From Dehalobacter sp. DCA (GTDB taxonomy: Bacteria; Bacillota; Desulfitobacteriia; Desulfitobacteriales; Syntrophobotulaceae), in NCBI RefSeq assembly GCF_000305775.1, contig NC_018866.1, positions 1,550,001 to 1,614,000 on the forward strand: a stretch of 64,000 nucleotides of DNA, read 5' to 3'. Position 1 is the stretch's first letter. Every line of letters starts with the position of its first letter. The notes under the pieces were generated by a model. It was not told the origin of the DNA. It saw nothing but the letters and a program-made list of their open reading frames with translations, and did no database searches. Position numbers and translations under genes: made by a program. Positions 14,134 to 46,790 of the stretch are shown one piece after another.

Positions 14134-14210
14134 GTACTCCTAACTATCCTGGCATAATACAGCAAAGCCAAGACTCTCCTTGATAACGACATAATTTGAT
14201 TTACACAAGC

Positions 14211-16320: not shown

Positions 16321-16378
16321 TTTCTCTCACCGCTACCTAATCAACCTTTAAATAATTGTTTTAGCAGGGTATTCGTCT

Positions 16379-17665: not shown

Positions 17666-17724
17666 GATAACCTCCATCCTTGATTCGTATTGAACTACGC
17701 TGAAACTTAAATGAAATTTGTCAT

Positions 17725-19464: not shown

Positions 19465-19509
19465 GGCCTTGTCCTCCAGCTATGATTGAGTTTATACAAT
19501 CGTGAACTG

Positions 19510-21454: not shown

Positions 21455-21479
21455 TTGACACTTCCTCCATTGAACTTTA

Positions 21480-22673
21480 TTAGTTAGCATAATACACAAA
21501 CGAAATATGATTCATATAAGACCGCAGATATAGTGTATAATCGTCCCTATACTGTTTTATGATTAAAGGGATCTCCCAAAAGTCCCATGTTTTGTGATAG
21601 CCGGCCACTGCGAGGCGGGGCTTGTACCTGCATATCGTCTGTTCTGCACCTTTCAGGGCTTCAATCTCCGAACCCTCGATGTTCATTTTGATATAGGTCG
21701 CCTGGACCCCGCCAAGAGTTTCATCAATCGTAACCGTCCTGATGCGTTCCTTTCCGATATCCGCTACAAAACTGCCGGGGCCATTCAGCGAATAGAGGTT
21801 TACACCCCTGTCATGACTGTAAACACCGGCTTTAATAAGATTGATTTTTTTTCGGATATCCTCCGGCATTCCGGCCACATAATCTTCCAGCCGTTTAAAG
21901 TTGCTCCCGTCCGGTTCGAAGCCGTAGTAGCCTTGAAACGTATTATCGTTCTCTCCGAGGAACGTCTGCAGACTAATCCCGTTGAAAGCCCCGCAGTCCA
22001 CAAAAACCTCATCCGGGCGCTTTTTTAAAAAGTCATCTTCAAAATACTGCTTTTCCTGGGTCATCGTCGGAATGGCAAGTGAATCATCCAGCATTCTGAA
22101 TTCAAGGATCTTCAGGAATACTTCCCGGGAGAGGTCGTCCGCAAGCATCTGATAGACTTTCTCGATATCGCCCCTGTGACTGCTCATCTGGTAGACATCC
22201 GAGCACGAAGGCAGGTTATACCTATCTCCATCAAACAACGCGTGGCATCTTCTGAAAAACGTATAGTCTATCAAGTGACGGCACCCGAATTCCCGCAGTT
22301 TTTGATGTACTCCCGTGTGCCCGCCGGTACGCAAGGCTTCATCAAAGCTTTTGCAGTACCTTTTTCCGTCCGTATTGATGGTAACGATAACCAGCGTGTT
22401 ATCTCCTGCCCTGCGAATAATATCCTGCGGCGCGATAACTTCAAGCCCTTCAACAAAACTGCCCCATTTGGCATCGCTCCCGTCGGCAAAATACTTTGGC
22501 TCAATTCCGATATCCCGTAAAACATACAAGAAGGCAATCCCGGCACTGCCTGCACCGTAGAGGACAATACCGTTCGTAAACCGTCCAAGATCGGATTTCA
22601 TTTTTTTAATAGAAATCTCAATGTTTTTTTGCTTTTGGTCAAATTCGTAAAAAAGTTCCTGAACTGATTTCAT
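21480..22673 (-). CDS. FkbM-family methyltransferase with N-terminal Rossmann-like domain
   Basis: About 397 residues. The N-terminal domain has IVLYGAGSAGIAFLYVL and a following acidic residue pattern (YFADGSDAKWG), like the PglD-type or NAD-type fold. The C-terminal FkbM domain shows VFVDCGAFNGISLQTFL, YGFEPDGSNFKRL, YIKMNIEGSEIEALKGAE and AGYHKTWDFWEIP. It is a clear paralogue of the protein at 15160-16320. The start ATG at 22673 lies behind AAGGTGAGG. It lies between the transketolase pair and another FkbM gene. Confidence 0.87.
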   Translation of the reverse strand: MKSVQELFYEFDQKQKNIEISIKKMKSDLGRFTNGIVLYGAGSAGIAFLYVLRDIGIEPKYFADGSDAKWGSFVEGLEVIAPQDIIRRAGDNTLVIVTINTDGKRYCKSFDEALRTGGHTGVHQKLREFGCRHLIDYTFFRRCHALFDGDRYNLPSCSDVYQMSSHRGDIEKVYQMLADDLSREVFLKILEFRMLDDSLAIPTMTQEKQYFEDDFLKKRPDEVFVDCGAFNGISLQTFLGENDNTFQGYYGFEPDGSNFKRLEDYVAGMPEDIRKKINLIKAGVYSHDRGVNLYSLNGPGSFVADIGKERIRTVTIDETLGGVQATYIKMNIEGSEIEALKGAEQTICRYKPRLAVAGYHKTWDFWEIPLIIKQYRDDYTLYLRSYMNHISFVYYAN

Positions 22674-22695
22674 TGTCCTCACCTTAACGTTTGTT

Positions 22696-23625
22696 CTATC
22701 TTTGACTTAGTGTTTCTTCGATGCCGGCAGCAACACCTACAGGGGAAATCCCGTACAGTTCATTCAGATATTCCCTTGATCCGGTCACCGGAGCAAAATC
22801 ATCGGGAAAACCAAAAGGCCTTAATTTCACGCTGAAGCTGCCCATATGCCGCGCCAGCACTTCGGATACCGCACTGCCCAATCCGCCGATCATACTGTGT
22901 TCCTCAAGCGTAAACATCGCCTTGTATTTCCCGACGCAATTTAATATGAGCTCTTCGTCAAGAGGTTTTATGGTATGCATACTGTAGAGCGCCATGGATA
23001 TTCCTTTATGTTCGAGCAGCTCACAGGCCTTGACGGCATCCTTGACCATCGTTCCCGTGGCAAACAGTACCGCGTCGCCGCCGTCCCTCATTTTTAGTGC
23101 CTTACCGATCCGGAAATCGATTTCCTTGTTGTGCACAATGGGATCTACACTGCGTCCTATCCGGATATAAAGAGGCTTGTCAAAGTGCTCGGAAGCAAGC
23201 ATGGCTGCCCGCATCTCCACCGGATCAGCAGGGCAGATAATATTCATATTGGGCAGCACCCGCAGCATCGCGATGTCAAAGGGCGCATGATGGGTCGGCC
23301 CCGCGTTCCCGTACGCCAAACCTCCGCCGACACCTACCATGACAACGGGATTCTCCTGAAAACATACGTCCAGCACAATCTGTTCCATTGCCCGCAGGGT
23401 CATAAACGATGCAACATTGTAGATATAGGGTTTTAGCCCCATGGCCGCGAGCCCGGCACCAAATCCGACAAAATTTTGTTCTGCAATACCAACGTTAACA
23501 AAGCGGTCCCGAAACTCCTTCTCAAAATCTTCAAACACGGAAAAACCCGTGTCGCCAATCACACAGACGATTTTAGGATTTTCTCGAGCCATCTTGGTCA
23601 GGGTGTTGATATAGGTGATTCTCAT
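22696..23625 (-). CDS. Transketolase C-terminal subunit (split transketolase)
   Basis: A 309-residue half-transketolase holding the Pyr domain and C-terminal domain. The activating Glu lies in VNVGIAEQNFVGFGAGLAA; GNAGPTHHAPFDIAMLR and RIGRSVDP follow. It overlaps the N-terminal half by 4 nt, so the subunits are coupled. Split transketolases transfer a two-carbon ketol unit between sugars; in sugar-nucleotide loci such pairs can instead build branched sugars. No other pentose-phosphate gene is near. Confidence 0.9.
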   Translation of the reverse strand: MRITYINTLTKMARENPKIVCVIGDTGFSVFEDFEKEFRDRFVNVGIAEQNFVGFGAGLAAMGLKPYIYNVASFMTLRAMEQIVLDVCFQENPVVMVGVGGGLAYGNAGPTHHAPFDIAMLRVLPNMNIICPADPVEMRAAMLASEHFDKPLYIRIGRSVDPIVHNKEIDFRIGKALKMRDGGDAVLFATGTMVKDAVKACELLEHKGISMALYSMHTIKPLDEELILNCVGKYKAMFTLEEHSMIGGLGSAVSEVLARHMGSFSVKLRPFGFPDDFAPVTGSREYLNELYGISPVGVAAGIEETLSQR

Positions 23626-24452
23626 CTGCTCAACTCCTTCAACGCAATCACAAGCTGTTCGTCACTCGGGGATTTAAAGTGCCATTCGAGACGGTTTTCC
23701 ATAAAAGACACACCTTTCCCCTTCACGGTATTCGCAATGATAACAGTGGGCTTGGACTGGTTGCGTCCGCAGGCGGTCATCAATGCCCGGTAAATCTGAT
23801 CGTAGTCGTGGCCGTTTATCTCAAGCGCATTGCATTCAAAAAAGGCAAATTTGGCTTTGATGTCACCCATATCCATGACTTCAACGTCGCTTCCATAGGA
23901 CTGAAGGCGATTTCTGTCTATAATGAGTACCAGATTCGAGAGATGGAATTTCGCTGCAAACATAGCAGTTTCCCAAACGGAACCCTCGTTGCACTCCCCA
24001 TCACCCATCAGGACATAGACATTGCCCGGCAGCCCCTGCAGCCTTTTGGCGTAAGCCATTCCGGCACCGACACTTGGTCCGTGCCCGAGCGAACCGGCTG
24101 ACATCTCGACACCGGGCGTAACATAACGGCGGGTGTGGCCGGCATAGTTTTCCCCATTTTGCGTGTGTTTTTCCAGATCCTCCATCGGAATGATCCCCAT
24201 ATGAGCCAGCACGGTATAGTAAGACGCCGCAATATGACCCTTGCTGAGGATAAAGACGTTTCGTCCCGGATCGTCCAGATTGTCTTTGGTGAGATTCAGG
24301 ATACGTTTGTATAAGACAGACATAATATCAATAGACGAATAGCCTCCGCCAATATGAGAATCCCTGGTACGGTTTGTTATCCTGGCAACGTCCATACGGA
24401 CCTGCCGGGCAAATTCAGCAACATCGTCAGTTTCAATTCTAGTAAAACTCAT
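23622..24452 (-). CDS. Transketolase N-terminal subunit (split transketolase)
   Basis: A 276-residue half-transketolase with the ThDP PP domain: SKGHIAASYYTVLA, GSLGHGPSVGAGMAYAKRL and the cofactor motif GDGECNEGSVWE ending at DRN. The ATG at 24452 has AGAAGG 8 nt upstream. The open frame extends further upstream into the rfbG tail and that extension is not credible. It pairs with the C-terminal half downstream and lies 34 nt after rfbG. Confidence 0.9.
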   Translation of the reverse strand: MSFTRIETDDVAEFARQVRMDVARITNRTRDSHIGGGYSSIDIMSVLYKRILNLTKDNLDDPGRNVFILSKGHIAASYYTVLAHMGIIPMEDLEKHTQNGENYAGHTRRYVTPGVEMSAGSLGHGPSVGAGMAYAKRLQGLPGNVYVLMGDGECNEGSVWETAMFAAKFHLSNLVLIIDRNRLQSYGSDVEVMDMGDIKAKFAFFECNALEINGHDYDQIYRALMTACGRNQSKPTVIIANTVKGKGVSFMENRLEWHFKSPSDEQLVIALKELSR

Positions 24453-24486
24453 TGAATTAACCTTCTTTCCAGTGTTCAGCCAGTCA

Positions 24487-25572
24487 TTAGAAGTAGATAT
24501 GATAAAATCGATGGATCTGTTCAAGGCAGAGTTCACGTTCTTCTCTGCCGGAAAGCTGACCTTTGAAAAATCCCACAATTTCACGGAGCATATCGTCACA
24601 GCTGAGCTCAGGTTCCCAATCAAGCTTTGCCAGTGATTTCGTTATGTCCAGACCCAGCGTCTTTGACTCTATCACCTGCGAAGCGGCTTCACCGATAAAA
24701 TATTCTGCGGGTCCTTCATAAAAGCCTTGCATTTTGCGTACGACCCACAGGACCTCTCTGATTCCATCCTTGGTGGGACCGATGTTCCATTGGCTTGAAT
24801 AGTCCCCGGGATTAGAATACAGCAGGCGTCCGACAGACAAGTATCCGTTCAGCGCGTCTAGCATGGACTGCCAGGGCCGCGTCTGGCGAGGATTGCGAAG
24901 CTCGACAGGTTTTCGCGCCGCAATCGATCTTAATATGGACGGGATCAGCCGTGACTGCACGTGGTCACCGCCGGCCAGCACGTTGCTGGCCCGAACAGTG
25001 GCAACACCCACCATCCTCTCCCCGGTCTGAAGATAGGATCGCTTGTACGTCTCAGCAATATACTCCATACATGTTTTGCTACTGGAATAAGGGTCAACCC
25101 CGCCGAGTGGATCGGTCTCCGCGTACACAGCACCGTCGCCTTTGTTCTCATACACTTTGTCGGTCGTAATGACAACAACGCTTTTAACACTGTCGCAGGC
25201 GCGGATAGCCTCAAACAAGTTCACTGTGCCCATAACATTGGTTTCATAGGCATTGCGCGGATCGTCATAACAGTCCTGGACAATGGCTTGGGCTGCGAGG
25301 TGGATCACAATTTCCGGCCTGAAAAAACAAAGTGCCTCCTTCAGGTGCTCAGCGTTCCTTATGTCACCCGTCACACTGTCTGTCATTTTGCCGCCCTTGA
25401 TTTTCTCAAACAGGCATTCATCCTCGGGAGCAAGCGCATATCCTCTGGTCTCTGCGCCCAGCGCATACAGGATTGCAGTAAGCCAGGCACCCTTGAAGCC
25501 TGTATGACCGGTTAAGAACACCCGCCTTCCCAGGTAAAATCTTTTATTGGTCAGACTCGCTTTTTTATCCAT
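24487..25572 (-). CDS. rfbG: CDP-glucose 4,6-dehydratase
   Basis: RfbG converts CDP-glucose to CDP-4-keto-6-deoxyglucose, the branch point for CDP-deoxysugars. Diagnostic features are FLTGHTGFKGAWLTAIL (NAD fold with the family HTGFKG), VIHLAAQAIVQDCYDDP, ITTDKVYEN and the catalytic PYSSSK. The ATG at 25572 gives 361 residues, the normal size, behind AAGGGTGG. It lies directly with rfbF and an SDR, as in O-antigen CDP-sugar loci. Confidence 0.94.
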   Translation of the reverse strand: MDKKASLTNKRFYLGRRVFLTGHTGFKGAWLTAILYALGAETRGYALAPEDECLFEKIKGGKMTDSVTGDIRNAEHLKEALCFFRPEIVIHLAAQAIVQDCYDDPRNAYETNVMGTVNLFEAIRACDSVKSVVVITTDKVYENKGDGAVYAETDPLGGVDPYSSSKTCMEYIAETYKRSYLQTGERMVGVATVRASNVLAGGDHVQSRLIPSILRSIAARKPVELRNPRQTRPWQSMLDALNGYLSVGRLLYSNPGDYSSQWNIGPTKDGIREVLWVVRKMQGFYEGPAEYFIGEAASQVIESKTLGLDITKSLAKLDWEPELSCDDMLREIVGFFKGQLSGREERELCLEQIHRFYHIYF

Positions 25573-25630
25573 ATGCCACTGTCCACCCTTACGTTCCATG
25601 TTTTAGGTTTTGACAAGGTATCAGACTTAT

Positions 25631-26674
25631 TTAACATTTATTAATACGGAGATCATCGTCGACCATCCCGTCCGCGATACGCTTTTTCAGGCACTTCAGA
25701 CGAGTACACTTATAGCCTGTGAAAGTCTCTTTATCAAAGCCGACTAGCTCGTAGAACCTTATCAGTTCTTCAGCGCCTTTCGTAATATCCCACTCAGGTT
25801 TGTAATAATCCTTCAGCACTGTAAGGATCTTATCTGACGAAACACGATAGCTGCGGGGGTCGGTATGTTCTCCCGTGAAGATCAGCTCCGTTCCCGGTAC
25901 GCATCCCTGAGCCGCTTTAGCCAACTGGCTTACGGTAAAATTATTGTTGGCAGTACCGACATTGAAAGCCTCATTTTTAATAAGTTCCGAGGGTGCTTCC
26001 ACGCAGGCTATAAAAGCAGCCGTGATATCGCGGATATGAGTCATCGGGCGCCAGGGTGTGCCGTCGCTCATAATCTGGATAAGTTTATTCGTAAACGCAA
26101 AAGCTACAAACTGGTTAAAAACAATATCAATCCGCAGGTTCGGACTTGCCCCATAGGCAGTGGCTGGACGAAGATAAACAATCACAAAATCATCTGAACA
26201 CATTTTTCTCAGTTCGCATTCGCTTTGCCATTTTGTTTTGGCATAGGCTGTGATCGGGTTTTTCTCTCCTTCTTCATCCACCTCTTTTGAAGAAGATGAG
26301 ATCCCGTAAATGCTCTGAGATGAGGTATAGATAAAACGTCCTACTCCTGCCTTCTTGGCACATTCCGCTAAGCGGATCGTCGCTTTGAAATTGATCTCCT
26401 CCGTGAGATCGGGGCTGAGATCTCCCAACGGATCGTTGGAAAGTCCCGCCAGATGCAATATGCAGTCGACACCTTTCAGATCTTCTTCGGTTACTTCGCG
26501 TATATCCTTTTTAATTTGCTTCACAAGCTTCTGGGGTGCAGGGACCAAATAACAGTCATCATAATAACCTATGTCATAACCGATCACGTCATAGCCGGCA
26601 TCCGTCAGGATAGGTACCAGTGTAGAACCGATATAGCCCAGATTTCCAGTCACTAAAAGCGTTTTCTTTTCCAT
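25631..26674 (-). CDS. NAD-dependent epimerase/dehydratase (extended SDR)
   Basis: A 347-residue SDR with LVTGNLGYIGSTLVPIL at the start, YTSSQSIYG and the catalytic YAKTK. TPWRPMTHIRDI and the NVGTANNNFTVSQLA segment match the nucleotide-sugar epimerase group. It lies between rfbF and rfbG, so its substrate is probably a CDP-sugar. It could be a 3- or 5-epimerase or a reductase. Confidence 0.87.
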   Translation of the reverse strand: MEKKTLLVTGNLGYIGSTLVPILTDAGYDVIGYDIGYYDDCYLVPAPQKLVKQIKKDIREVTEEDLKGVDCILHLAGLSNDPLGDLSPDLTEEINFKATIRLAECAKKAGVGRFIYTSSQSIYGISSSSKEVDEEGEKNPITAYAKTKWQSECELRKMCSDDFVIVYLRPATAYGASPNLRIDIVFNQFVAFAFTNKLIQIMSDGTPWRPMTHIRDITAAFIACVEAPSELIKNEAFNVGTANNNFTVSQLAKAAQGCVPGTELIFTGEHTDPRSYRVSSDKILTVLKDYYKPEWDITKGAEELIRFYELVGFDKETFTGYKCTRLKCLKKRIADGMVDDDLRINKC

Positions 26675-26725
26675 ATTTAACGTCTCCTCAAATCTTTATA
26701 CCTGATATACCTAACGCCAGCATTG

Positions 26726-27499
26726 TTACCACTTAATCCAAGGCGCAGTTCCTTTCTCAACCAGCATGTCCAGATGAATCTTATCACGCAGCGTATCCAT
26801 ACACTGCCAGAAACCTTGATATTTATAGGCCATGAGCTCATTGTCCCGAGCAAGATTTTCGAGAGGGTCCCGTTCCAAAACGCTACTGTCCCCTTCCAGG
26901 TAGTCAAAGATTTGCGGCTCCATCACCATATATCCTGCATTAATCCAGCCGCCGTCTTCCTTGTTCTTCTCTGCAAAATTGGTAATAGCCTGACTATCAT
27001 CAATTTCCAGAACACCAAATCGTCCGCCGGGCTGTATAGCAGTCATTGTGGCAATTTTACGGGATGCTTTGTGAAAGTCCACAAGCTCGCTGATATTGAT
27101 ATCAGAAACACCGTCACCGTAAGTCAGCATAAAAGTTTCCTCTCCGACATACTTTTGTACACGTTGAAGCCGTCCGCCCGTCTCGGTTTTTAAGCCTGTA
27201 TCCACAAGTGTCACTTTCCAGGGTTCTGCCACATTGCTGTTGACGATCATCTCATTGTTATTTTTAAAATCAAAAGTAATATCGGACCGATGCAGATAAT
27301 AATCGGCAAAATACTCCTTAATTTTGTATCCCTTGTAACCACAGCATATAATAAATTCGTCATAACCATAGTAGGAATAGGACTTCATGATATGCCAAAG
27401 GATCGGTGCATCACCTATTTCGATCATTGGTTTCGGCTTCAAATGACTTTCTTCACTAATCCTCGTCCCAAATCCTCCTGCCAGAATCACTACTTTCAT
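26726..27499 (-). CDS. rfbF: Glucose-1-phosphate cytidylyltransferase
   Basis: RfbF makes CDP-glucose from CTP and glucose-1-phosphate. The 257-residue protein has the cytidylyltransferase start VILAGGFGTRISEESHLKPKPM, the Mg-binding YGDGVSDI and FGVLEIDD, and WINAGYMVMEP. Length and motifs equal the RfbF/AscA family. A strong GGAGGGG precedes the ATG. Together with rfbG it commits the island to a CDP-linked 6-deoxy sugar. Confidence 0.95.
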   Translation of the reverse strand: MKVVILAGGFGTRISEESHLKPKPMIEIGDAPILWHIMKSYSYYGYDEFIICCGYKGYKIKEYFADYYLHRSDITFDFKNNNEMIVNSNVAEPWKVTLVDTGLKTETGGRLQRVQKYVGEETFMLTYGDGVSDINISELVDFHKASRKIATMTAIQPGGRFGVLEIDDSQAITNFAEKNKEDGGWINAGYMVMEPQIFDYLEGDSSVLERDPLENLARDNELMAYKYQGFWQCMDTLRDKIHLDMLVEKGTAPWIKW

Positions 27500-27559
27500 G
27501 CTTACCCCTCCTGTTACTGTTCATTCGTTCATTTGTTCATCAGCATTTTGGTCATTAAT

Positions 27560-29638
27560 TTATATATTCATAGCAGCTATACTGTTCTTCAATTCAGTAA
27601 TTTCCGGATCATTCGGAATAATTTCCTCATAGCCCTGAATAATTTCTCTGGCTTCTTTGAACATCCCGTTCTGGATAAACTGCTTCAGATTGGCTTTCAC
27701 AATCTGCGCATATTCCTGCATTTCGGCGCTGACACTAGGCTTCGCCTGATCGTCCATTTTCTTTGTCAGCCTGTTCAAAAGCACTTCTATTCCTTTTTTC
27801 ATATCAGGATACTCGAGAAGTGCTTTTTTCAAATACCTTACATATTGGGCCCGATCGGTAGTTTCAACAAAACGGGCTTTATCAAGGTAGTAGAAGAATA
27901 TTTCTTCCTTATCGGCCAGAAGATAGGGTTTGTCATCTTCAAATATTTCCAGTCTGTAGATTCTCCTGATATAACCGATACCGTCTTTGATATACCTATC
28001 CAGCACCTGATCGTACTTTTCCTGATCAAGATGTTCCGTTTGAAGCATGATCCTCCGCAATATTTTGTGAACCCTTTGTTCTTCAAGGGTGGAATCTTTG
28101 TCCTGACTCTGCAGATAGGTATCACACAACACAGCAAAATCTGGATATTTTTCATTCAGATATCTGAAGAACAATTCCAGCTCCTGCTCCTGAATTTCAA
28201 GATTTATGCTGTGTAAAGAGATCTTCCTTTTCATGATGAAATAGAACACATCTCCAAAGTAAAACCCAAGCTCATTAAGCGGTAGTTTGCTGATCTCATC
28301 CAGTAGCTGATTTACATTTTCCTGATCCCAGAGCCTGATTCTATTTAATAAACCATACTCCGTATCCTCGTTTTGGAAAAGTTCGGCTGCTTCTTTCCTT
28401 CTATCGTCATTCTCACTCAGTAATAAAGACTCTAAAGCCAGGCAAAAACTTTTTTCCAGGTCTCTCTTGGCAAATGCTTTTATTTTATTGTAAAAACCTT
28501 TAATCCCTTTATATTTTTCGAGGCTCAAATATAGCGCAATTTGATGAGGAACAGCTTTTTCGACCAATTCAATGGATTCGATCTTCTCCAGTACTTCCAG
28601 CGCATCAGCTTTCTGATTCATTTCCTTGTACATAACGCCTAAGTCATAGTATACTTCTTCTGTTTTGGAGATCGAATTCGCCAAAATTCTTGGGTCTTTT
28701 CCGAGATACTGTTCATAGTTCTCAGCGTAATATAAAAACTTCTGGTAACTTGCAATGGCTTCCTGGTATTTCTTTAACATCCCCTGAGCTTTAGCGAGAC
28801 AAAACCATAAGTCAATGGCCCATTCCCTGTATTCTAGGCCTTCCTGAGCTATTTCTACAGTCTTCTTGTACTCACCATTATCGTTGTATAAAATAGCCAG
28901 GGTGCCATACACATAGAAATACTCTACTGGATCCAAGTTCTTTCTTTTGGCAGTCTCGTAAGCTCTGATTGCGGGCTCCAGGGCGTCCTTATGATTTTTA
29001 AATGTGGCAATCGTATTGGAAAGATAAAATAATAAGCCAATATTCTCCGGGTCCTTCTCGATGGCTTGCAGTAGGATGGGCTCGTAAAGCTTAAACTTCC
29101 GCTTTTTAAGTTCCGGATCATCGGCAGGATAGCCATAATGAAGCAGCACGGTATCAATGACTGCCAGGGGCGGGTTGAAGATAGGCTCTTCGTGAATAAC
29201 GCCACGAAAGCCAAATTCGGCGGTCTTGCGAAATAGCCGTGTTACGACGCCGGTGCCAATTTTGCTTGGTTCATTAAAATGATAAATATTGTTAATTTTG
29301 ATTGCTGCTGCGTTAATATTTTTAGATGCCTTTGTTGTCAAAAATTGAACAATCGGCTTATGATCCACCAGCTCTTCATCGGCATCCACAAACATAAACC
29401 AGTCTCCCTGGGCATACTGCACCGTTATATTCCTCATTTTTGAATAGTCATTTTCCCAGGGATGGAAATATATTTTATCCGTGTATTTTCTGGCGATTTC
29501 CACTGTCTGATCCATTGAGCCCGTATCCACAATGATAAGTTCTGAAGATACTGCGTTTAAAAGTGGCTTAAGGCTTTCCAAACATCTTTCCAGATTTTTC
29601 TCTTCATTTTTTACCATCATACCGATGCTTAATTTCAA
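27560..29638 (-). CDS. Family 2 glycosyltransferase with long TPR/helical repeat tail
   Basis: A 692-residue protein. Residues 1-190 are a GT-A glycosyltransferase (SIGMMVKNEEKNLERCLESL, IIVDTGSMDQTVEIA, DxD as FVDADEELV, then GVIHEEPIF). Residues about 190-690 are TPR-like helices (for example YEPILLQAIEKDPENIGLLFYL, given here as pieces LLQAIEKDPENIG and AILYNDNGEYKKTVEIA). The start codon is TTG behind GGAAG. GT-TPR proteins beside flagellin genes often act directly on flagellin; that is inferred here. Confidence 0.87.
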   Translation of the reverse strand: MKLSIGMMVKNEEKNLERCLESLKPLLNAVSSELIIVDTGSMDQTVEIARKYTDKIYFHPWENDYSKMRNITVQYAQGDWFMFVDADEELVDHKPIVQFLTTKASKNINAAAIKINNIYHFNEPSKIGTGVVTRLFRKTAEFGFRGVIHEEPIFNPPLAVIDTVLLHYGYPADDPELKKRKFKLYEPILLQAIEKDPENIGLLFYLSNTIATFKNHKDALEPAIRAYETAKRKNLDPVEYFYVYGTLAILYNDNGEYKKTVEIAQEGLEYREWAIDLWFCLAKAQGMLKKYQEAIASYQKFLYYAENYEQYLGKDPRILANSISKTEEVYYDLGVMYKEMNQKADALEVLEKIESIELVEKAVPHQIALYLSLEKYKGIKGFYNKIKAFAKRDLEKSFCLALESLLLSENDDRRKEAAELFQNEDTEYGLLNRIRLWDQENVNQLLDEISKLPLNELGFYFGDVFYFIMKRKISLHSINLEIQEQELELFFRYLNEKYPDFAVLCDTYLQSQDKDSTLEEQRVHKILRRIMLQTEHLDQEKYDQVLDRYIKDGIGYIRRIYRLEIFEDDKPYLLADKEEIFFYYLDKARFVETTDRAQYVRYLKKALLEYPDMKKGIEVLLNRLTKKMDDQAKPSVSAEMQEYAQIVKANLKQFIQNGMFKEAREIIQGYEEIIPNDPEITELKNSIAAMNI

Positions 29639-29789
29639 AGCGTCCCACTTCCTTCAGTAAATGTCAGTTATCATGACTCTCAATTATTTTTTCACTAGTT
29701 CCTGCCGCATGATATATTAGAATTAGGGTTGACATGGTATTAAATATATTATCGGCTAAGATGCTGTCTTTCTGGAGAAGAAATTTTTC

Positions 29790-30854
29790 TCATTTCAGCT
29801 CTTTCATCCGGGTTGATGCTGATTCATAGCCATCTGCTGCAGCTCTGGTATAGTATTCTTTGGCCTTGGTCATGTCGCCTGTTGTTTCATAGTACACGCC
29901 CAGATTATATGCTGCCAGGAAACTTCCTGTCCCTGTCGTTGTGCTGTACTTATCCGTCTCTCCCAATTGAAGACAGGTTTGATACTCCCGTTCAATTTCT
30001 GGAAAGAGGTGAATATATTTGTCCACATCAGAAAAAACAAGTTCCATGTAGAAAAGAGCGCATACAAAATGAAAGTCCGGATAATCAGCAAACTGTGCTC
30101 TCTCTTTTTCAATCATGCCAAGTCCTTTAAGTAGTTTCCCGGTGGCAAGAATATTGTAAAGATAGTCAATCACAACAAGATCTCTATAGCCTGCGTTTCG
30201 ACCCAGAAATTGATAGCACTTTTCGAAATAGTCGTTTGCCGTCTGATATTGACCGGATAATTTGTATTGTTTAGCCGTCTGGTATAGAAGATAAGGGTCA
30301 CTAGGATGATTGTCCAATTCGAGTAGCAATAAACGTAAATTTCGGCCCGTTTTGTCCGTTTCGTAGTAGCCGTCATGATTCACTTCGATTTCCGTATTGA
30401 CCCGTGGAAGGTTTGATATAATTTGCTCATGAACTCTGCCTTCAAAATAGATTCCTTTCGGAATCAACCTGGAAACCCAAGTGCTGGAAGTTCTTATTTC
30501 ATGATCCTGCCTAATCTTACTGACCACTTTGATTCTGCCGATGGCCTCAGGCTGCTCCATAAAGCGCTGAATACGCTCTTTCGTTCCCTGTGTAAGAACT
30601 TCATCAGCATCGAGGATTAGATTCCAATCCCCTGCCGCGTAACTCAGCGCAAAATTTCGGGCCTTGGCAAAGTCATCCTCCCAAACATAATCGCATACTT
30701 TAGCACCATAAGCGTGAGCAATTTTTTTCGTATCATCCGTGGAACCCGTATCCGCAACAATCATTTCATCAACAAGATGCTTAACACTGTCCAAACATCT
30801 GGCTAAGACCTTCTCTTCATTTTTAACAATCATGACCAATGATAGCTTTCTCAT
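29790..30854 (-). CDS. Family 2 glycosyltransferase with TPR tail
   Basis: A 354-residue relative of the preceding gene product. The GT domain has SLVMIVKNEEKVLARCLDSV, IVADTGSTDDTKKIA and DxD as LILDADEVL. TPR-type helices start at about residue 200 (LYQTAKQYKLSGQYQTANDYFEK, split as LYQTAKQYK and SGQYQTANDYF) and end with YNLGVYYETTGDMTKAKEYYTRA. It is the first gene of the island after the csrA terminator. Likely peptide or filament glycosylation. Confidence 0.87.
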   Translation of the reverse strand: MRKLSLVMIVKNEEKVLARCLDSVKHLVDEMIVADTGSTDDTKKIAHAYGAKVCDYVWEDDFAKARNFALSYAAGDWNLILDADEVLTQGTKERIQRFMEQPEAIGRIKVVSKIRQDHEIRTSSTWVSRLIPKGIYFEGRVHEQIISNLPRVNTEIEVNHDGYYETDKTGRNLRLLLLELDNHPSDPYLLYQTAKQYKLSGQYQTANDYFEKCYQFLGRNAGYRDLVVIDYLYNILATGKLLKGLGMIEKERAQFADYPDFHFVCALFYMELVFSDVDKYIHLFPEIEREYQTCLQLGETDKYSTTTGTGSFLAAYNLGVYYETTGDMTKAKEYYTRAAADGYESASTRMKELK

Positions 30855-40279: not shown

Positions 40280-41287
40280 TCATCCCAGCGGGTTTATGCT
40301 GTCAGGTTTATCCCACCAGGCTCGGTTGTCCCGATACCATTGAATCGTATCCCGAATTCCCTCGTTAAGATGATACCGGCATTGCCAATCCAGCTTCGTT
40401 TTCAGCTTCGTGCTATCCAGCGCGTATCTCCAGTCGTGTCCGGGCCTGTCAGCAACCTGAACCAGCGCATCCGCCGGTTTACCCAGCATGTTCAGTATGG
40501 TCCGGGCCATCTCTAGGTTCGATGTTTCCTCCCCGCTCCCAATATTATACACCTCTCCTGGTTCCCCGTCCGAAAGTATCTCCGCAAGCGCCGCACAATG
40601 GTCCAGTACGTGGATCCATTCACGTTTATGGGACCCATCCCCATAGACAGTCAGCGGCATATCCTGTAAAACCTGAATGATACTATGCGGAATAAATTTT
40701 TCTTTATCCTGATTGGGTCCATAGTTATTGCAGCACCGGGTCACGATCACCGGAAAGCCGTAAGTTCTAGCAAAAGCCCTGGCCATTAAATCAGCAGCTG
40801 CTTTGGATGCCGAATATGGGCTGTTTGGACGAATCATGGAATGCTCCGAAAACTGTTCTGCCTCATTATCAAGACTTCCGTATACTTCATCGGTGGAAAC
40901 CTGAATAAAGCGTTTTCCCGTAAAGCCGTTCTTCTCCCAATGTTCCTTGAAACAATGAAGCAGCGTTAAAGTCCCCATCAAATTGCTTCGGCCGAAAACC
41001 AGAGGATCGGTAATACTTCTGTCCACATGCGATTCGGCAGCAAAATTAATCACATCATCGGGGTCACATTCCTGAATAATGCGTTTGACCTCTTTCGCAG
41101 TACTGATATCCCCTTGCGTAAAATAATACCTTGGATGAGCTGCCAGGTCTTGAAGATTTTCCACCTTTCCTGCGTAAGTCAGTTTATCAAAATTAATGAC
41201 GATAACATCCTGATTGCGCTGCAAAATATATTTAATAAAATTGCTTCCGATAAAGCCTGCGCCACCGGTAACCATAAGAACTCTCAT
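40280..41287 (-). CDS. rfbB: dTDP-glucose 4,6-dehydratase
   Basis: RfbB converts dTDP-glucose to dTDP-4-keto-6-deoxyglucose. The 335-residue SDR shows VTGGAGFIGSNFIKYIL, LTYAGKVENL, INFAAESHVDRSI, VSTDEVYGSL and the catalytic PYSASKAAAD (Tyr-x3-Lys). All match the RmlB family. It forms a minus-strand pair with rfbA. Confidence 0.95.
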   Translation of the reverse strand: MRVLMVTGGAGFIGSNFIKYILQRNQDVIVINFDKLTYAGKVENLQDLAAHPRYYFTQGDISTAKEVKRIIQECDPDDVINFAAESHVDRSITDPLVFGRSNLMGTLTLLHCFKEHWEKNGFTGKRFIQVSTDEVYGSLDNEAEQFSEHSMIRPNSPYSASKAAADLMARAFARTYGFPVIVTRCCNNYGPNQDKEKFIPHSIIQVLQDMPLTVYGDGSHKREWIHVLDHCAALAEILSDGEPGEVYNIGSGEETSNLEMARTILNMLGKPADALVQVADRPGHDWRYALDSTKLKTKLDWQCRYHLNEGIRDTIQWYRDNRAWWDKPDSINPLG

Positions 41288-41333: not shown

Positions 41334-42359
41334 CTAGAGATCGATCTGACAGTGGTCCCCAAGAAAAAAAGTACTGACTAAAGAGCTTTTTTCGGGGCTA
41401 CCTTGAATGGAAACCTGGTTTCCGATTAAGCTTCCGCTGATTTTCTTGGAGACATTGGCAAGTTGCGTATCCTCTAGGATAATACAATTTTCGATCTCAC
41501 ATTCTGTAATCCGGGTTCTCCTGCCCACTGTCGTATACGGTCCGATAAAGCTGTCCGTAATGACAGCATCATCGTCCAGATGAACTGGCCCCTGAATAAT
41601 ACTGTTTCGAATGGTCACATTGTTTCCCATTTGGATTTTTTCGGCCAGCGCTGCATCAAACATCAAGCGATTTGCTTCAAGAATGTCGTCTAATTTTCCG
41701 GTATCCTTCCACCATCCCCGGACCAGATCGCAAGTGACCCTGGCCCCGTTTTCCAATTGATTTTGGATTGCATCGGTAATCTCAAGTTCTCCCCGGCGGG
41801 ACGGTTTGATTCTGTCAATCGCTGCAAAAATGCTGTGGTCAAAGGCATAGACCCCTGTGATGATCAAGTTGCTGATATACTTCTCAGGCTTTTCGTAAAG
41901 CGCTGTTACAAATCCGTCTTTCACCACCGCAACCCCGAATTGGGAAGGATTGCTGACCGTATGAAGCAATACGCTGGTGTTGGCCTTTTGCTGGTAGAAA
42001 TTTTGAATGAAGCTATCCAGCTCCATATTGAAGATGTTGTCTCCAAGGATCATCACAAAATCATCGCGGCCAAGAAAGTCGGCCGCAGTCCGAACAGCAT
42101 GGGCAAGCCCCAGGGATTTATGCTGACGAATATAGGTGATTGCCGTGCCCCACGCTTCTCCGCTGCCGACCGTTTTTTTTACTTGTTCCTGCGTATCCCC
42201 AACGATAATCCCAATATCATGGATACCTGCCCTGGCTATCTTTTCAATAAGATAGATCAGTACTGGTTTGTTGACCAAGGGAAGAAGCTGTTTCGCCTTG
42301 GAATAGGTCAGCGGTCTGAGCCTTGTTCCGGTTCCTCCGCTTAAAATCAGAGCTTTCAA
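41334..42359 (-). CDS. rfbA: Glucose-1-phosphate thymidylyltransferase, long form
   Basis: RfbA makes dTDP-glucose from dTTP and glucose-1-phosphate. Motifs: LILSGGTGTRLRPLTYSKAKQLLP, VMILGDNIFNM, EKPEKYISN and RGWWKDTGKLDDILEAN. At 341 residues it is the long, StrD-like type with a C-terminal left-handed-beta-helix region (NNVTIRNSIIQGPVHLDDDAVITDSFIGPYTTVG in parts). It differs from the short RmlA and matches the antibiotic-sugar type. Confidence 0.92.
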   Translation of the reverse strand: MKALILSGGTGTRLRPLTYSKAKQLLPLVNKPVLIYLIEKIARAGIHDIGIIVGDTQEQVKKTVGSGEAWGTAITYIRQHKSLGLAHAVRTAADFLGRDDFVMILGDNIFNMELDSFIQNFYQQKANTSVLLHTVSNPSQFGVAVVKDGFVTALYEKPEKYISNLIITGVYAFDHSIFAAIDRIKPSRRGELEITDAIQNQLENGARVTCDLVRGWWKDTGKLDDILEANRLMFDAALAEKIQMGNNVTIRNSIIQGPVHLDDDAVITDSFIGPYTTVGRRTRITECEIENCIILEDTQLANVSKKISGSLIGNQVSIQGSPEKSSLVSTFFLGDHCQIDL

Positions 42360-42442: not shown

Positions 42443-42548
42443 GGTGTAACCACGGACAACTCCTCCCATATAATAAAGTGATAGTGCCCTATCAGAACCT
42501 AAAGGGATGATCAAGTAAAAAGACAATTAAGTGGAGGGAGATATAGGA

Positions 42549-43460
42549 ATGGTAGCGCCGCTCCTAAGCTATGTAACCTTTAACCGCCTGGGCCAGACAA
42601 TCAGGAGCCTTTCAAGTGTCCTTGAAACGCCGGAAAACTTTGAATTAGCAATTGTTGATAATAATTCCACAGACGGGACCTGGAAATATATCCAAAGTCT
42701 GAAGGATAGACGGATCAAATTCAAAACAAGGCTCCCTGTCAATCTAGGACAGGTCTACGCCTCAAATCTAAATCTGTCCAAGAGAAGAGATGATCAATAT
42801 TTTATCGCTGTCGATCAGGATGTTGTGATTGAAAGCAAAAATTGGCTGACCTACATCCTAAGGGTGTTTAAAAATACTCCGAATATCGGTTTACTCAGTA
42901 TTCATGCCGGGTTTCCGCCCCCAAATATGCCTCCGACTACCCCGGTCATCAAAAATGATTTGGTTTATCTGGAATTGACCAAGAACAGGTCTGATTATTC
43001 GCAGGATTATATGCCCGGTAGCATCCTGGCCTTGAGCCCTGATCTTATCTCTAAAATTGGCTTTTGGAGTGAAGAAAATAATTTTGGCAGCAGAGAGCTG
43101 TTTCTAAGGGCTAATCATTTTACAGCGTTTAAAACAGGAATTCTGATGAACGTGAACATTTCTATCCCGCAACAAATAATTTGCGGCAAATGCCCCGGTC
43201 AGTCCTTCTGCCGTCTGTCAAAAAACGGAGAGACAAAAACCGGAGAAACCTGCTATACCATCTACGAGAAATTAAACCATAATAAATTATTTCGAGAACA
43301 ATACCGCTGGAAATTTGACGAAACAGTTAAGGATCTGCAGAGCGGTGCCCGTTCCCCATACTGCACTTCATTATTCAGCTGTAACTCCACTGCAGAGGAA
43401 AGCTACAACCTTGACTGGGCAACTGAAAACTTTCAATTCTATGCATCCAAAGCCAACTGA
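42549..43460 (+). CDS. Glycosyltransferase (GT2-like) with C-terminal Cys cluster
   Basis: A 303-residue protein starting LLSYVTFNRLGQTIRSLSSVL, then the GT2 motif IVDNNSTDGTWKYIQSL and DxD as AVDQDVVIE. A C-terminal Cys set CGKCPGQSFC, then C at the GETCYTI segment and a terminal C pair, is unusual for GT2. ATG 42549 has GGAGGGAG 8 nt upstream. Its paralogue is at 45363-46538. First gene of the plus-strand dTDP-sugar part. Confidence 0.82.
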   Translation: MVAPLLSYVTFNRLGQTIRSLSSVLETPENFELAIVDNNSTDGTWKYIQSLKDRRIKFKTRLPVNLGQVYASNLNLSKRRDDQYFIAVDQDVVIESKNWLTYILRVFKNTPNIGLLSIHAGFPPPNMPPTTPVIKNDLVYLELTKNRSDYSQDYMPGSILALSPDLISKIGFWSEENNFGSRELFLRANHFTAFKTGILMNVNISIPQQIICGKCPGQSFCRLSKNGETKTGETCYTIYEKLNHNKLFREQYRWKFDETVKDLQSGARSPYCTSLFSCNSTAEESYNLDWATENFQFYASKAN

Positions 43461-43482
43461 ATATTTGCCAGGGGAGAAAAAA

Positions 43483-44622
43483 ATGTTAAACAATGATGGT
43501 TTTTCTGAACCGGTCTATGTTACCGAACCTTTGCTTCCAGACTTGGCGGAGACTTGCAGCATGCTCGAAATAATATGGCAAAGCAGGCAGCTTAGTAATA
43601 ACGGGAAGATGGTCCAAGAACTAGAAAGAAAACTGTCTGCTTTCCTGGGCGCCCGATATTTATCGGTTTTTGCAAATGGCACGAATGCCTTGCAAATTGC
43701 GTGCAAGACCCTGGATCTGTCCGGGGAAGTTATCACAACACCGTTTACCTTTGCCGCTACGGCCAACGCGCTGGCCTGGAATCATCTTACGCCGGTCTTC
43801 TGCGACATTGAAGAAGCCACGTTCAATATTGACGCCGACCGTATCGAGTCCCTGATTACGGATAAAACCACTGCCATCCTGCCGGTACACGTTTTCGGCC
43901 ATCCGTGCGAGGTCGAAAAGATTGACCGGATTGCGGCAAGGCACAACCTGAAAGTACTTTATGACGGCGCCCACGCTTTTGGTGTGAAAATAAAGGGTAA
44001 ACCGGTCGGCGCCTATGGAGATATCACCATGTTCAGCTTTCATGCCACCAAAATCTTTCACACCGTCGAAGGCGGCGCACTTATCTTTCGAGATCAGGAC
44101 CTCCAGCAGAAAGCCAAGTGTTTGAGAAATTTTGGTCTAAAAGAAGACTATAGTGTGGACGAACCCGGTATAAACGGCAAACTGAACGAATTGCAAGCCG
44201 CTATCGGCATTTTGCTCTTAAAAGAAGTAGAAGCTGAAATAGCCCAAAGAAAATATCTTACCAACCAGTACCGGCAAGTGCTGGCTGATGTCCCAGGCAT
44301 AACCGTCTCCCAGGAGGCTGAAGAAATTACAGCCAATTATCCGTATTTTGTTATCCGGGTTGATCCGGCCGCGTACGGTATCTCCCGGGACGAGCTCTAT
44401 AGCCGATTGTCAAGCTTCAATATTTTTTGCCGAAAATATTTTTACCCGCTCTGCAGCAATTTCAAGTGTTTTAAGGGTCTTCCTTCATCCTCCCCAGACA
44501 ATCTAGCCACAGCCAACAAAGTCGCGAAAAGTGTTCTGGCTCTGCCGCTTCACGGAAGAATGTCAGCGTCCGACGTTCAAAAAATAGGCGGTATCATCAG
44601 GGAAATTAAAATTAAAAATTAA
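43483..44622 (+). CDS. DegT/DnrJ/EryC1/StrS-family sugar aminotransferase
   Basis: PLP enzyme that aminates a keto sugar-nucleotide. The 379-residue protein has VYVTEPLLPDLAE, FANGTNALQIACKTLDL, TTPFTFAATANAL, YDGAHAFGV and the PLP Lys in SFHATKIFHTVEGG. The ATG 43483 lies behind AGGGGAG; the open frame upstream overlaps the previous gene. Given rfbA/rfbB and the acyltransferase it probably makes dTDP-4-amino-4,6-dideoxyhexose (VioA-like); 3-amination is the alternative. Confidence 0.9.
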   Translation: MLNNDGFSEPVYVTEPLLPDLAETCSMLEIIWQSRQLSNNGKMVQELERKLSAFLGARYLSVFANGTNALQIACKTLDLSGEVITTPFTFAATANALAWNHLTPVFCDIEEATFNIDADRIESLITDKTTAILPVHVFGHPCEVEKIDRIAARHNLKVLYDGAHAFGVKIKGKPVGAYGDITMFSFHATKIFHTVEGGALIFRDQDLQQKAKCLRNFGLKEDYSVDEPGINGKLNELQAAIGILLLKEVEAEIAQRKYLTNQYRQVLADVPGITVSQEAEEITANYPYFVIRVDPAAYGISRDELYSRLSSFNIFCRKYFYPLCSNFKCFKGLPSSSPDNLATANKVAKSVLALPLHGRMSASDVQKIGGIIREIKIKN

Positions 44623-44673
44623 AAATTAAAAAGGAAATCAACAAAATTTTCAATTGAATTGGGCGTGTGATCA

Positions 44674-45366
44674 TTGGCCATAAAAGATCTCATCATTTTT
44701 GGAGCCGGCGGCTTTGGCCGGGAAGCTACCGAGCTCGTCGAAGATATCAATACAGAAAAAAAGCAGTGGAACCTGTTGGGCTATATCGACCAAACTCCAG
44801 CCAAACAAGGAAAGGTTATCAATAACTATCCTGTTCTGGGCAACCTGGACTGGCTCGAAAAAAACACAGGTCACCCTCTCTGGATTGTATGTGCGGTAGC
44901 CAGACCGACGGATAAATACCGTCTGATCGCCAGCCTGTCCTGTTTCCAGCTATATTTTGCCAACCTGATTCATCCCGCTGCCCGAATAAGCCGCTCCGTT
45001 CAATTGGGCTGTGGCAATATCATCTGCTGGAACAGTTTTCTGTCGACGGATGTCAGGATAGGCAGTCACGTAGCCTTAAATCCAGGCTGCAGGATTGGCC
45101 ACGATACGGCTGTCCGGGATTACTCCTCTTTATACTGGGACGTCACCCTGGCCGGAAACGTGCAAATCCAAGAAGGTTGTGAAATCGGTTCCAAAACTGT
45201 GGTGATTCCCGAAAAAGAGATTGGCAGGTGGAGCATCATCGGGGCTGGCGCTACCGTCACCCACGATATCCCGGAATACTGCACGGCCGTCGGCGTCCCT
45301 GCCCGACCGATTAAACATTTTAAAAATTTGGTTGAGACCCATTCCCCTAAAGGACTGATGATATGA
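44674..45366 (+). CDS. Left-handed beta-helix acyltransferase (PglD/VioB-like)
   Basis: A 230-residue protein. The N-terminal fold has LIIFGAGGFGREATELVEDIN, the PglD-type substrate domain. The C-terminal hexapeptide repeats (about 105-200) include INPGCRIGHDT-type turns (ALNPGCRIGHDTAVRDY) and IIGAGATVTHDIP. Such enzymes N-acylate an amino sugar on its nucleotide. The start is TTG with no clear ribosome site, after an A/T tandem (ATTAAAA-type) at 44605-44633. It overlaps the next gene by 4 nt. Confidence 0.88.
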   Translation: MAIKDLIIFGAGGFGREATELVEDINTEKKQWNLLGYIDQTPAKQGKVINNYPVLGNLDWLEKNTGHPLWIVCAVARPTDKYRLIASLSCFQLYFANLIHPAARISRSVQLGCGNIICWNSFLSTDVRIGSHVALNPGCRIGHDTAVRDYSSLYWDVTLAGNVQIQEGCEIGSKTVVIPEKEIGRWSIIGAGATVTHDIPEYCTAVGVPARPIKHFKNLVETHSPKGLMI

Positions 45367-46538
45367 AGGAACTTTCTTCTATTTTGATCAAAACTGCGAT
45401 ACAGCTTGTTCTTGAAGCCATTAATCAGGCCCAGGCCTCTGCCCTGCCAAAGCGCGTCAGCCCCTTCCCTGTTCAGGTAGCCGCTGACACCCCTGCTGCG
45501 GAAATTTCTCTACAAGCGGTTCCAAAAAACATTGACTGGGAAGAATTAGACGACGACGCCATCCTTCAACAGATTCTATATCCTGGGATCCTGGAAGAAA
45601 TCATCGAACCTTCTGTACAGAACCCGACAGACAGCACCTCCCCTCCTCCTTTTATCAGCTATGTTACCTTCAACCGTCTCGGGCTTACCATGCAGAACCT
45701 AAACAAGATTTTGGATTCAGACGAAGATTTTGAAATGCATATCATCGACTGCAACTCCAAAGATGATACCTGGAATTATATCAAAAGCCTTCAGGACAAA
45801 AGAATTAAATCCAAAACACGCTTTAAGGTTAACCGGGGGCCGATCTATGTCCTGAACTACAACCTCAGAAAAAGAAAACCCAACCAGTATTTCTTCACGA
45901 TTGACAGCGATGTCTATATCAAGACCAAAAACTGGCTGACCAGGTATATGGAAATATTTGAAGCTTTTCCGGAAGTCGGTCTCTTAGGAACCATGCGAGA
46001 TAACCCTTATCCGAGATTTCTCCCTCCCGTCATTCCTCAGGTCAATAATGATCTGTCCTATCTTCAGCTGAGAAATGCCGGCATTGATGTAATCATGGAT
46101 TTTATTCCGGGATGTCTTCAGGGGTTACGGCCCGAGCTCATTGACCGGATCGGTTATTGGAATGAGGAATGCGGGTATGGCGATGCTGAATTATCACCAA
46201 GGATTGTGCATTATACACCTTTCAAAGTCGGCTTTGTCACGACCGTGGAAATTGATATGACCCAGTTCATCGGCTGTGACAAGTGTCAGGCCCAAAACCT
46301 CTGCACGCTGAACAGAAGCATAAAAACCTGCTTTATGCTGGCCAAGCAGGCCAACAGTAACGAAAGCTTTGCCAAAAAGGCCAAATGGAAATACCTCGAA
46401 GTATTTCAAGAGCTAGCCGATGGAAAAAGAACAGCCTATTGCGCCTCACTTTTGGACCCTGCATCCCGGGAAGGGAATTTGTACCATGATGCCTGGGCAC
46501 TCGAGAATTTTGAATATTATTTGAGAAGATCGAACTGA
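45363..46538 (+). CDS. Glycosyltransferase (GT2-like) with N-terminal extension and Cys cluster
   Basis: A 391-residue paralogue of the 42549 gene product. Residues 1-95 are an extra helical/Pro-rich region (QASALPKRVSPFPVQV). Then SYVTFNRLGLTMQNLNKIL, IIDCNSKDDTWNYIKSL, DxD as TIDSDVYIK, and NWLTRYMEIF. The C-terminal Cys set is CDKCQAQNLC...C, matching its paralogue. Start overlaps the acyltransferase stop by 4 nt. Likely adds a dTDP-sugar to filament protein or glycan; acceptor unknown. Confidence 0.82.
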   Translation: MKELSSILIKTAIQLVLEAINQAQASALPKRVSPFPVQVAADTPAAEISLQAVPKNIDWEELDDDAILQQILYPGILEEIIEPSVQNPTDSTSPPPFISYVTFNRLGLTMQNLNKILDSDEDFEMHIIDCNSKDDTWNYIKSLQDKRIKSKTRFKVNRGPIYVLNYNLRKRKPNQYFFTIDSDVYIKTKNWLTRYMEIFEAFPEVGLLGTMRDNPYPRFLPPVIPQVNNDLSYLQLRNAGIDVIMDFIPGCLQGLRPELIDRIGYWNEECGYGDAELSPRIVHYTPFKVGFVTTVEIDMTQFIGCDKCQAQNLCTLNRSIKTCFMLAKQANSNESFAKKAKWKYLEVFQELADGKRTAYCASLLDPASREGNLYHDAWALENFEYYLRRSN

Positions 46539-46628: not shown

Positions 46629-46640
46629 ATGGTTCTTAAT

Positions 46641-46790
46641 GTGTTGGGGCAAACTTCACGAAAGTGAAGGACGCTAAAGTCATGGGTCTAAATCAGGGAA
46701 TTTGAAAATGCATGCAATACAAAATGAATGGAATCCAAATGCATTTCCAGGATATTCTGACAGGATTGCCAGACTACAAGGATTTTGAAC
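46641..46790 (+). ncRNA. Cyclic-di-GMP-I (GEMM-I) riboswitch aptamer
   Basis: The core GGGGCAAAC, a perfect stem CTTCAC-GAAA-GTGAAG with GNRA loop, then GGACGCTAAAG and GGGTCTAA is the diagnostic GEMM-I pattern. A long P3 arm (about 46690-46765) follows and closes at GATTGCCAGACTAC, like the family GCCAGGUUACC end. The conserved GGG before CAAAC keeps the G that selects c-di-GMP in the known structure. It lies before the terminator and permease gene. Strong match by eye, not by covariance search. Confidence 0.88.

Follow-up and report, generated by a model that had tools for sequence, protein, structure and literature searches.

A Dehalobacter cassette with two cysteine-module glycosyltransferases and a 4-acylamino-4,6-dideoxyhexose pathway, and its possible role in glycosylating spore-surface proteins

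The window analysed here (the whole stretch of 64,000 nucleotides at positions 1,550,001–1,614,000 of the 3,069,953-base genome of Dehalobacter sp. DCA, labelled G000) contains a cassette that encodes two paralogous family 2 glycosyltransferases (GT2), a short one (GT1; protein P0001) and a long one (GTL; P0002), together with enzymes of an amino-sugar pathway (Table 1). Both paralogues carry a conserved cysteine module. The type of promoter, the linkage of related cassettes to genes for CBM96/BclA-type proteins and the co-occurrence of the enzymes with such proteins together favour proteins of the spore surface over flagellin as acceptors of the sugar. The chances are about even that the whole is a mother-cell cassette by which GTL, with GT1 as its partner and zinc held by four cysteines, supplies an anthrose-like sugar to spore-surface proteins; taken by itself, a spore-surface acceptor is moderately likely.

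Both proteins matched PF00535 above its cut-off of 23.3 bits (GT1, 51.5 bits; GTL, 38.1 bits), so that the two GT2-like enzymes of the preliminary description are real; they were 42 % identical across 301 columns and had the motif SYVTFNRLG in common. Their predicted models (predicted local distance difference test, pLDDT, 90.4 and predicted template modelling score, pTM, 0.90 for GT1, weaker near residues 221–230; pLDDT 84.3 and pTM 0.79 for GTL) had the GT-A fold, with matches to GT-A chains in the PDB up to Z 18.4 for GT1 and Foldseek E-values down to 2.9e-9 for GTL. The nearest solved structures of both were GT-A enzymes, SpsA of Bacillus subtilis being among them. By alignment, GTL has about 94 extra N-terminal residues, in agreement with the 95 given earlier. 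The length of this extension ranged from 27 to 151 residues among 13 GTL copies, and in one of them it consisted in part of degenerate LKDIxKHPS tandem repeats (locus L046, 10145–10597, minus strand). No sign was found that the extension binds an export substrate, as had been suggested, and no direct test of this was made.

A 27-row profile (A1) detected members of the family in 10 of the order’s 73 genomes (E ≤ 1e-20), all belonging to one taxonomic family, and in five of 398 genomes of an even sample of the phylum (E ≤ 1e-15), one of which (G220) gave only a partial match to the GT domain (64 bits). Searching with GT1 alone gave matches at E ≤ 0.001 in 13 of 25 genomes, of which G004, G008 and G010 were rejected as members as they had weak GT2 matches only. 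Scanning genome contigs with GTL revealed six loci, including one in Candidatus Formimonas warabiya (L008). The genome of the window itself has four full members, two inside the window and two elsewhere. A second alignment (A2) comprised 28 rows from 12 genomes, including these four copies. The copies of the near-identical strains G003 and G005 were left out of both alignments and the tree; the G021 short copy, whose frame is broken in the assembly, was kept in A1 but used in neither A2 nor the tree. L006 and L007 (apparent duplicates of G009:C45 and G021:C5) and L011 (27 % identity over 112 residues) were also omitted, whilst the G013 short copy lay at a contig end and no short copy was seen on the stretch of L010 covered. 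In the tree of the 28 rows, one branch (support 100/100) separated the nine short copies located upstream of the DegT gene (GT1) from all others, and a second branch (95/97) did the same for the 13 long copies (GTL); the six remaining ‘solo’ copies required two changes.

The preliminary description had pointed to a shared C-terminal cysteine cluster and had named lack of conservation in homologues as the observation that would refute it. The set CxxC-x5-C-x(8–13)-C (C212, C215, C221 and C235 in GT1; C305, C308, C314 and C323 in GTL) was present in 27 of the 28 aligned members, the exception being the L009 short copy, in which the loop is deleted. A fifth cysteine (C272 in GT1, C360 in GTL) was likewise present in 27 of 28, missing from one solo copy of the window’s genome. 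Conservation of these cysteines is thus, in the alignment, far above chance. The module is internal to the C-terminal part of the proteins, about 70–90 residues ahead of the end, and in hidden Markov model searches the C-terminal ~100 residues of five members matched no Pfam model credibly (matches with E from 0.026 to 4 were disregarded). A zinc-ribbon-like tail, as first supposed, did not survive inspection of the spacing: two CxxC knuckles are required, and here a single CxxC is followed by cysteines at x5 and x8–13, with no Pfam support for a ribbon. The SPASM domain, which has the pattern CX2CX5CX3C with a further cysteine and sits on radical-SAM proteins, was rejected on the spacing of the third and fourth cysteines (x8–13) and for want of any radical-SAM or SPASM match, and a C-terminus of the tetratricopeptide repeat (TPR) or SgtA type was rejected as no TPR match was found. 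In the part of the literature matches that was listed, no title or start of an abstract described this family; the topics were GT-A enzymes with structural zinc, glycosyltransferases without a catalytic base, SgtA, CBM96 and collagen-like spore proteins.

It is likely that the four cysteines bind a single structural zinc ion, which would anchor the module to the GT-A core. Four conserved cysteines would suit a [4Fe-4S] cluster as well as Zn(Cys)4, and the hosts, where named, are anaerobes of the clostridial type; an iron–sulfur cluster or a redox switch is nevertheless quite unlikely, as no iron–sulfur domain was among the Pfam matches and one copy has lost the cysteine loop as a whole, as would be expected for a structural site.

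The other genes of the cassette support a pathway to a 4-acylamino-4,6-dideoxyhexose linked to deoxythymidine diphosphate (dTDP), the chemical class of both viosamine and anthrose, as had been proposed for a viosamine-type sugar. RmlA and RmlB reached the equivalog level of the TIGR models expected for the dTDP-viosamine/DesI pathway, and the best model for the aminotransferase was that of DesI (TIGR04427; 332.8 bits, below the cut-off of 650). RmlA, RmlB, the DegT aminotransferase and the NeuD-type acyltransferase would together make the activated sugar. The earlier picture of a glycosyltransferase pair bracketing the amino-sugar genes holds for the aminotransferase and the acyltransferase, which lie between the two; rmlA and rmlB lie outside the pair, divergent and on the opposite strand. 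The end of the acyltransferase gene overlaps the start codon of GTL, and GT1 has an alternative GTG start at 42531, upstream of the one used here.

The sigma-K consensus comprises AC at −35, a spacer of 16–17 bases and CATAnnnTA, and the sequence ahead of GT1 fits this pattern. In PMC3789822, an AC −35 element with the −10 element CATATAAT is described as the sigma-K promoter P2 of Clostridium difficile sigK, and bclA1–3 are placed under sigma-K control. The exact form AC-N16-CATANNNTA was present in nine of 19 upstream regions inspected, one from a near-identical strain. A looser form, AC-N16..18-CATAnnAT[AG], occurred ahead of GT1, DegT-head and solo genes in all 17 regions tested and in two of 10 surface-protein regions, i.e. 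in 19 of 27 overall, compared with a mean of 0.165 of 27 in dinucleotide shuffles. Amongst 298 predicted genes at 22 loci, it preceded 20: 12 family members, one DegT gene at a cassette head, two CBM96 genes and five further genes, one of these (L102) without a Pfam match. This control undercounts family matches, since the automatic gene caller missed GT1 of the window (overlap rule) and placed some starts too early (L043, L071). Judging from the motif, the cassette may be under sigma-K control and would probably be expressed late in spore formation.

A second element, GGACAA or its complement TTGTCC, was found in 20 of the 27 upstream regions (shuffles, 1.98). The combination GGACAAN{6,9}CATATNATA had six matches in five genomes, compared with two for the reversed control. 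Five of the six fell at this system: G000, G006 and G009 had one apiece and G020 had two, G217 none. The pattern TTGTCCN{8,13}CATANNATG had seven in four genomes, three at solo copies (control, one). At several loci the half-sites stood upstream of rmlA, GT1 and CBM96 genes, sometimes as palindromes (GGGACAAACTGTCCC in L050). Their recurrence suggests a shared regulator, possibly a SpoIIID-like one.

The presence of the enzymes tracked that of CBM96 surface proteins. Using the N-terminal 189 residues of a G014 protein as query (E ≤ 1e-8) in 25 genomes of one family, a homologue was found in nine of the 10 genomes with the enzymes and in none of the 15 without (Fisher, 4.9e-6); amongst genomes bearing SpoIVA the figures were eight of nine and none of 10 (1.2e-4). 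The enzyme-bearing genome without a homologue (G021) is 77 % complete. The two traits also agreed inside three genera, where G004, G010 and G011/G012 lacked both. A gene for a CBM96 protein adjoins GTL in G002, G013 and G014 and is about 5 kb away in G020. BclA_C domains were found on the CBM96-type proteins of G006, G009, G013 and G014 and on one of G020; the G006 and G020 proteins also carried collagen repeats. Overall, BclA_C matches occurred in six of the 10 enzyme-bearing genomes (five over the curated cut-off) and in three of the 15 others (one over the cut-off). The genome of the window encodes two CBM96 proteins. The gene at G000:2,559,401 has a TTGTCC...CATATGATG promoter like those at solo copies, and that at 1,092,825 is flanked by two GT2+TPR (SgtA-like) genes, with a solo copy about 4 kb away; less than 7 kb separates such SgtA-like genes from a solo copy in this genome. 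Divergent from a solo copy, there is also a gene for a protein of 463 residues that carries SPTFGLAEIKTE-type repeats in tandem (L039, 6382–7773, minus strand; about 1,096,381–1,097,772 of G000), which had no Pfam match and is possibly a spore-surface protein.

Several observations weigh against assigning the cassette to the spore surface. According to PMC3910700 and PMC4751268, spore formation has never been seen in Dehalobacter, so that for this organism the spore-surface role is a prediction. The genomes in the co-occurrence counts are not independent of one another. Neither CBM96 protein of the window’s genome had a Pfam collagen match, and no BclA_C match was found in that genome, G003 or G005, so BclA_C had to be dropped as a universal partner; it also occurs in the three genomes without the enzymes mentioned above. 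SpoIVA, which is present in the window’s genome, was rejected as a discriminating marker (nine of 10 genomes with the enzymes versus 10 of 15 without) and was not found in the enzyme-bearing G005. The looser promoter motif was chosen after inspection and tuned on these same sequences, and eight of the 10 surface-protein genes lack it. Genome-wide, strict AC-N16-CATATNATA had 12 matches in the window’s genome versus five for the control, and the genes downstream did not, by eye, appear enriched in spore functions; this weak excess either speaks against simple sigma-K control or means that the pattern is too strict. Finally, the cassette is beside flagellar genes in the window and in G021, with a loose link in G006 and G217.

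This last point bears on flagellin, the target favoured in the preliminary description: the cassette would make a viosamine-type sugar that both glycosyltransferases put on flagellin, as in Pseudomonas syringae, whose flagellin carries a modified viosamine (PMC3927599). The window’s cassette is a few kb from flgK/flgN/flgM/motAB/cheR-like genes (by eye), as are those of G003 and G021; in G217 the distance to a motB-like gene (by eye) is about 8 kb, and in G006 that to flagellin is about 15–20 kb. In contrast, no flagellar gene was recognized around the cassette in the stretches of G002, G009, G013, G014, G020, L008, L009 and L010. Flagellin is present in nine of the 10 enzyme-bearing genomes, but also in 14 of the 15 others, and G014 has the enzymes with no flagellin match; as a co-occurring partner flagellin therefore did not discriminate, whereas CBM96 did. 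The promoter is of the sporulation type. A crude sigma-D pattern was found neither before the cassette nor at the flagellin genes and was thus uninformative. Moreover, the window holds a separate large sugar-modification island next to its flagellin genes (12436–30854, minus strand, between these and an flgL-like gene), with GT2, methyltransferase-like and dehydratase-like genes (by eye). For glycosylation of flagellin, this island is a more plausible candidate than the GT1/GTL cassette. No report on flagellin glycosylation in Dehalobacter was found in the literature. Glycosylation of flagellin by the cassette is on these grounds improbable.

It is also conceivable that the enzymes extend a vegetative or stress-induced surface glycan to which CBM96 proteins merely bind. 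CBM96 is named as a carbohydrate-binding module, and some of the PDB entries nearest in GT2 fold to the two proteins are transferases that act on polysaccharides or wall teichoic acid (heparosan synthase, K4CP, TarS/TarP and RmlT). No flippase, polymerase or exporter gene was, however, seen between rmlB and GTL (by eye), although ABC-transporter-like genes are present in the cassette flanks of L040, L042 and L044. Together with the type of promoter and the collagen and BclA_C domains on some of the linked proteins, this makes a role in envelope polysaccharide improbable.

A division of labour between the two enzymes is suggested by their catalytic residues. The base column was identified by profile alignment to the GDARF motif of SpsA, whose Asp we take to be the catalytic base. 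All 13 GTL copies have DSD and GDAE and retain this Asp (Asp274 in the window, at 46182–46184). The base Asp was also present in all six solo copies, four of which have Glu for the first Asp of DxD. In contrast, it was missing in five of the nine GT1 copies, replaced by Ser in G000 (Ser181, 43089–43091) and G006, His in G002 and Asn in G009 and G014, and DxD was lost in four of the nine; GT1 of the window retains DQD. The ratio of non-synonymous to synonymous substitution rates (dN/dS) computed for GT1 against two close strains was 0.07 and 0.14, indicating purifying selection, and that for GTL against the same strains was 0.24 and 0.31 (extension included). By this measure the GT1 gene in the window is not undergoing decay. 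As the base is lost in five of nine copies and the gene is nevertheless under purifying selection, GT1 may be a non-catalytic partner. We consider it fairly probable that GT1 is non-catalytic or altered in activity: an old paralogue, base-less in the window and in several relatives, that most likely would act with GTL in a heteromer or hold the acceptor. GTL, which has the catalytic residues, would transfer the 4-acylamino-4,6-dideoxyhexose, or the sugar adjacent to it, in the mother cell to CBM96/BclA-type spore-surface proteins. Strong purifying selection and the retained DQD would also suit a GT1 that is a normal active enzyme using another residue as base, with GT1 and GTL adding two successive sugars. 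The confident GT-A model, the invariant neighbouring Glu176 and Glu183 and the retention of the base Asp in four of the nine GT1 copies are also in keeping with this. The alignment of the column with the SpsA Asp, its invariance in GTL and solo copies and the additional loss of DxD in four of the nine GT1 copies argue the other way, so that an active GT1 is an unlikely, if appreciable, alternative.

Table 1. Features of the cassette (window positions)
Feature	Position	Strand	Remarks
rmlB, dTDP-glucose 4,6-dehydratase	40280..41287	-	TIGR01181 441.5 bits, cut-off 365.1
rmlA (long form), glucose-1-phosphate thymidylyltransferase	41334..42359	-	TIGR01208 401.2 bits, cut-off 320.25
Sigma-K-type promoter (predicted), AC-N16-CATATAATA	42449..42475	+	Upstream of GT1; GGACAA (42454-42459) in spacer
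GT1 (P0001), short GT2 paralogue, 303 aa	42549..43460	+	PF00535; Ser181 at catalytic-base column
GT1 four-Cys module, C212-C235	43182..43253	+	Fifth Cys272 at 43362-43364
DegT-family sugar aminotransferase	43483..44622	+	PF01041 334.3 bits
NeuD/VioB-family sugar acyltransferase	44674..45366	+	TIGR03570 205.4 bits, cut-off 160.8
GTL (P0002), long GT2 paralogue, 391 aa	45363..46538	+	PF00535; DSD and base Asp274 intact
GTL N-terminal extension	45363..45644	+	Helix predicted for residues 2-27, linker of low confidence at 28-55, then a second short helix and a strand
GTL four-Cys module, C305-C323	46275..46331	+	Fifth Cys360 at 46440-46442

Comparison with known systems showed partial likeness in each case. 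SpsA, the GT2 of B. subtilis spore coat polysaccharide (PDB 1h7l, 1qg8), shares the GT-A fold (profile match E 2e-4, structure Z 16.6), was solved with dTDP and has its base Asp aligned with Asp274 of GTL; unlike the enzymes described here, its profile alignment stops at position 195, before the cysteine module, and we know of no paralogue pair involving SpsA. SgtA of C. difficile is also of the GT2 type and, according to PMC7157674, acts as an O-linked N-acetylglucosamine (GlcNAc) transferase that glycosylates peptides of the collagen-like spore-surface protein BclA3 on Thr, its gene lying beside that of the acceptor. SgtA differs in having a C-terminal TPR region and using UDP-GlcNAc, where GT1 and GTL have the cysteine module instead, and the SgtA-like GT2+TPR genes occur separately in the window’s genome. 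Anthrose, of the same 4-acylamino-4,6-dideoxyhexose class, is described in PMC6947953 as the terminal sugar on the collagen-like spore protein BclA of Bacillus anthracis. It carries a 2-O-methyl and a branched acyl group, and the likeness here is one of sugar class. The viosamine island of P. syringae (PMC3927599) has a viosamine-type pathway in common with the cassette; its acceptor is flagellin, whereas promoter and linkage here point elsewhere.

In the window, a candidate c-di-GMP-I-GGC riboswitch (46639–46782, plus strand) precedes a transporter-like gene at 46910; it scored 42 bits against RF03167, below the gathering threshold of 59 (E 1.1e-8 in a 391-base search), and is about 64 bases longer than the model. 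Directly behind the cassette, L008 (10628–15236) and L009 (4469–10145) have gas-vesicle-like genes (GvpA, GvpN and GvpF/L by eye). In four genomes GTL is immediately followed by a gene for a ~150-aa protein with MKIYISASWK near its start (L048, 13647–14096; L008, 9969; L046, 8797; L071, 8899), of which the L048 copy had no Pfam match.

In its most specific form, the proposal is that an obligate complex of a catalytic and a base-less paralogue, both with Cys4 metal modules, puts an anthrose-like sugar on the CBM96/collagen-type proteins of a spore nap in a genus not known to sporulate; as a complete statement this is rather unlikely to hold in every part. If true, GT1 and GTL would join SgtA as another kind of glycosyltransferase for spore-surface proteins, one marked by a Cys4 module outside the coverage of Pfam and by a paired pseudo-enzyme, and anthrose-like spore sugars would extend to strict anaerobes. 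Sporulation of Dehalobacter-type organohalide respirers would then become a testable question, because the promoter of the cassette is of the mother-cell type and selection maintains the first of the cassette’s genes.

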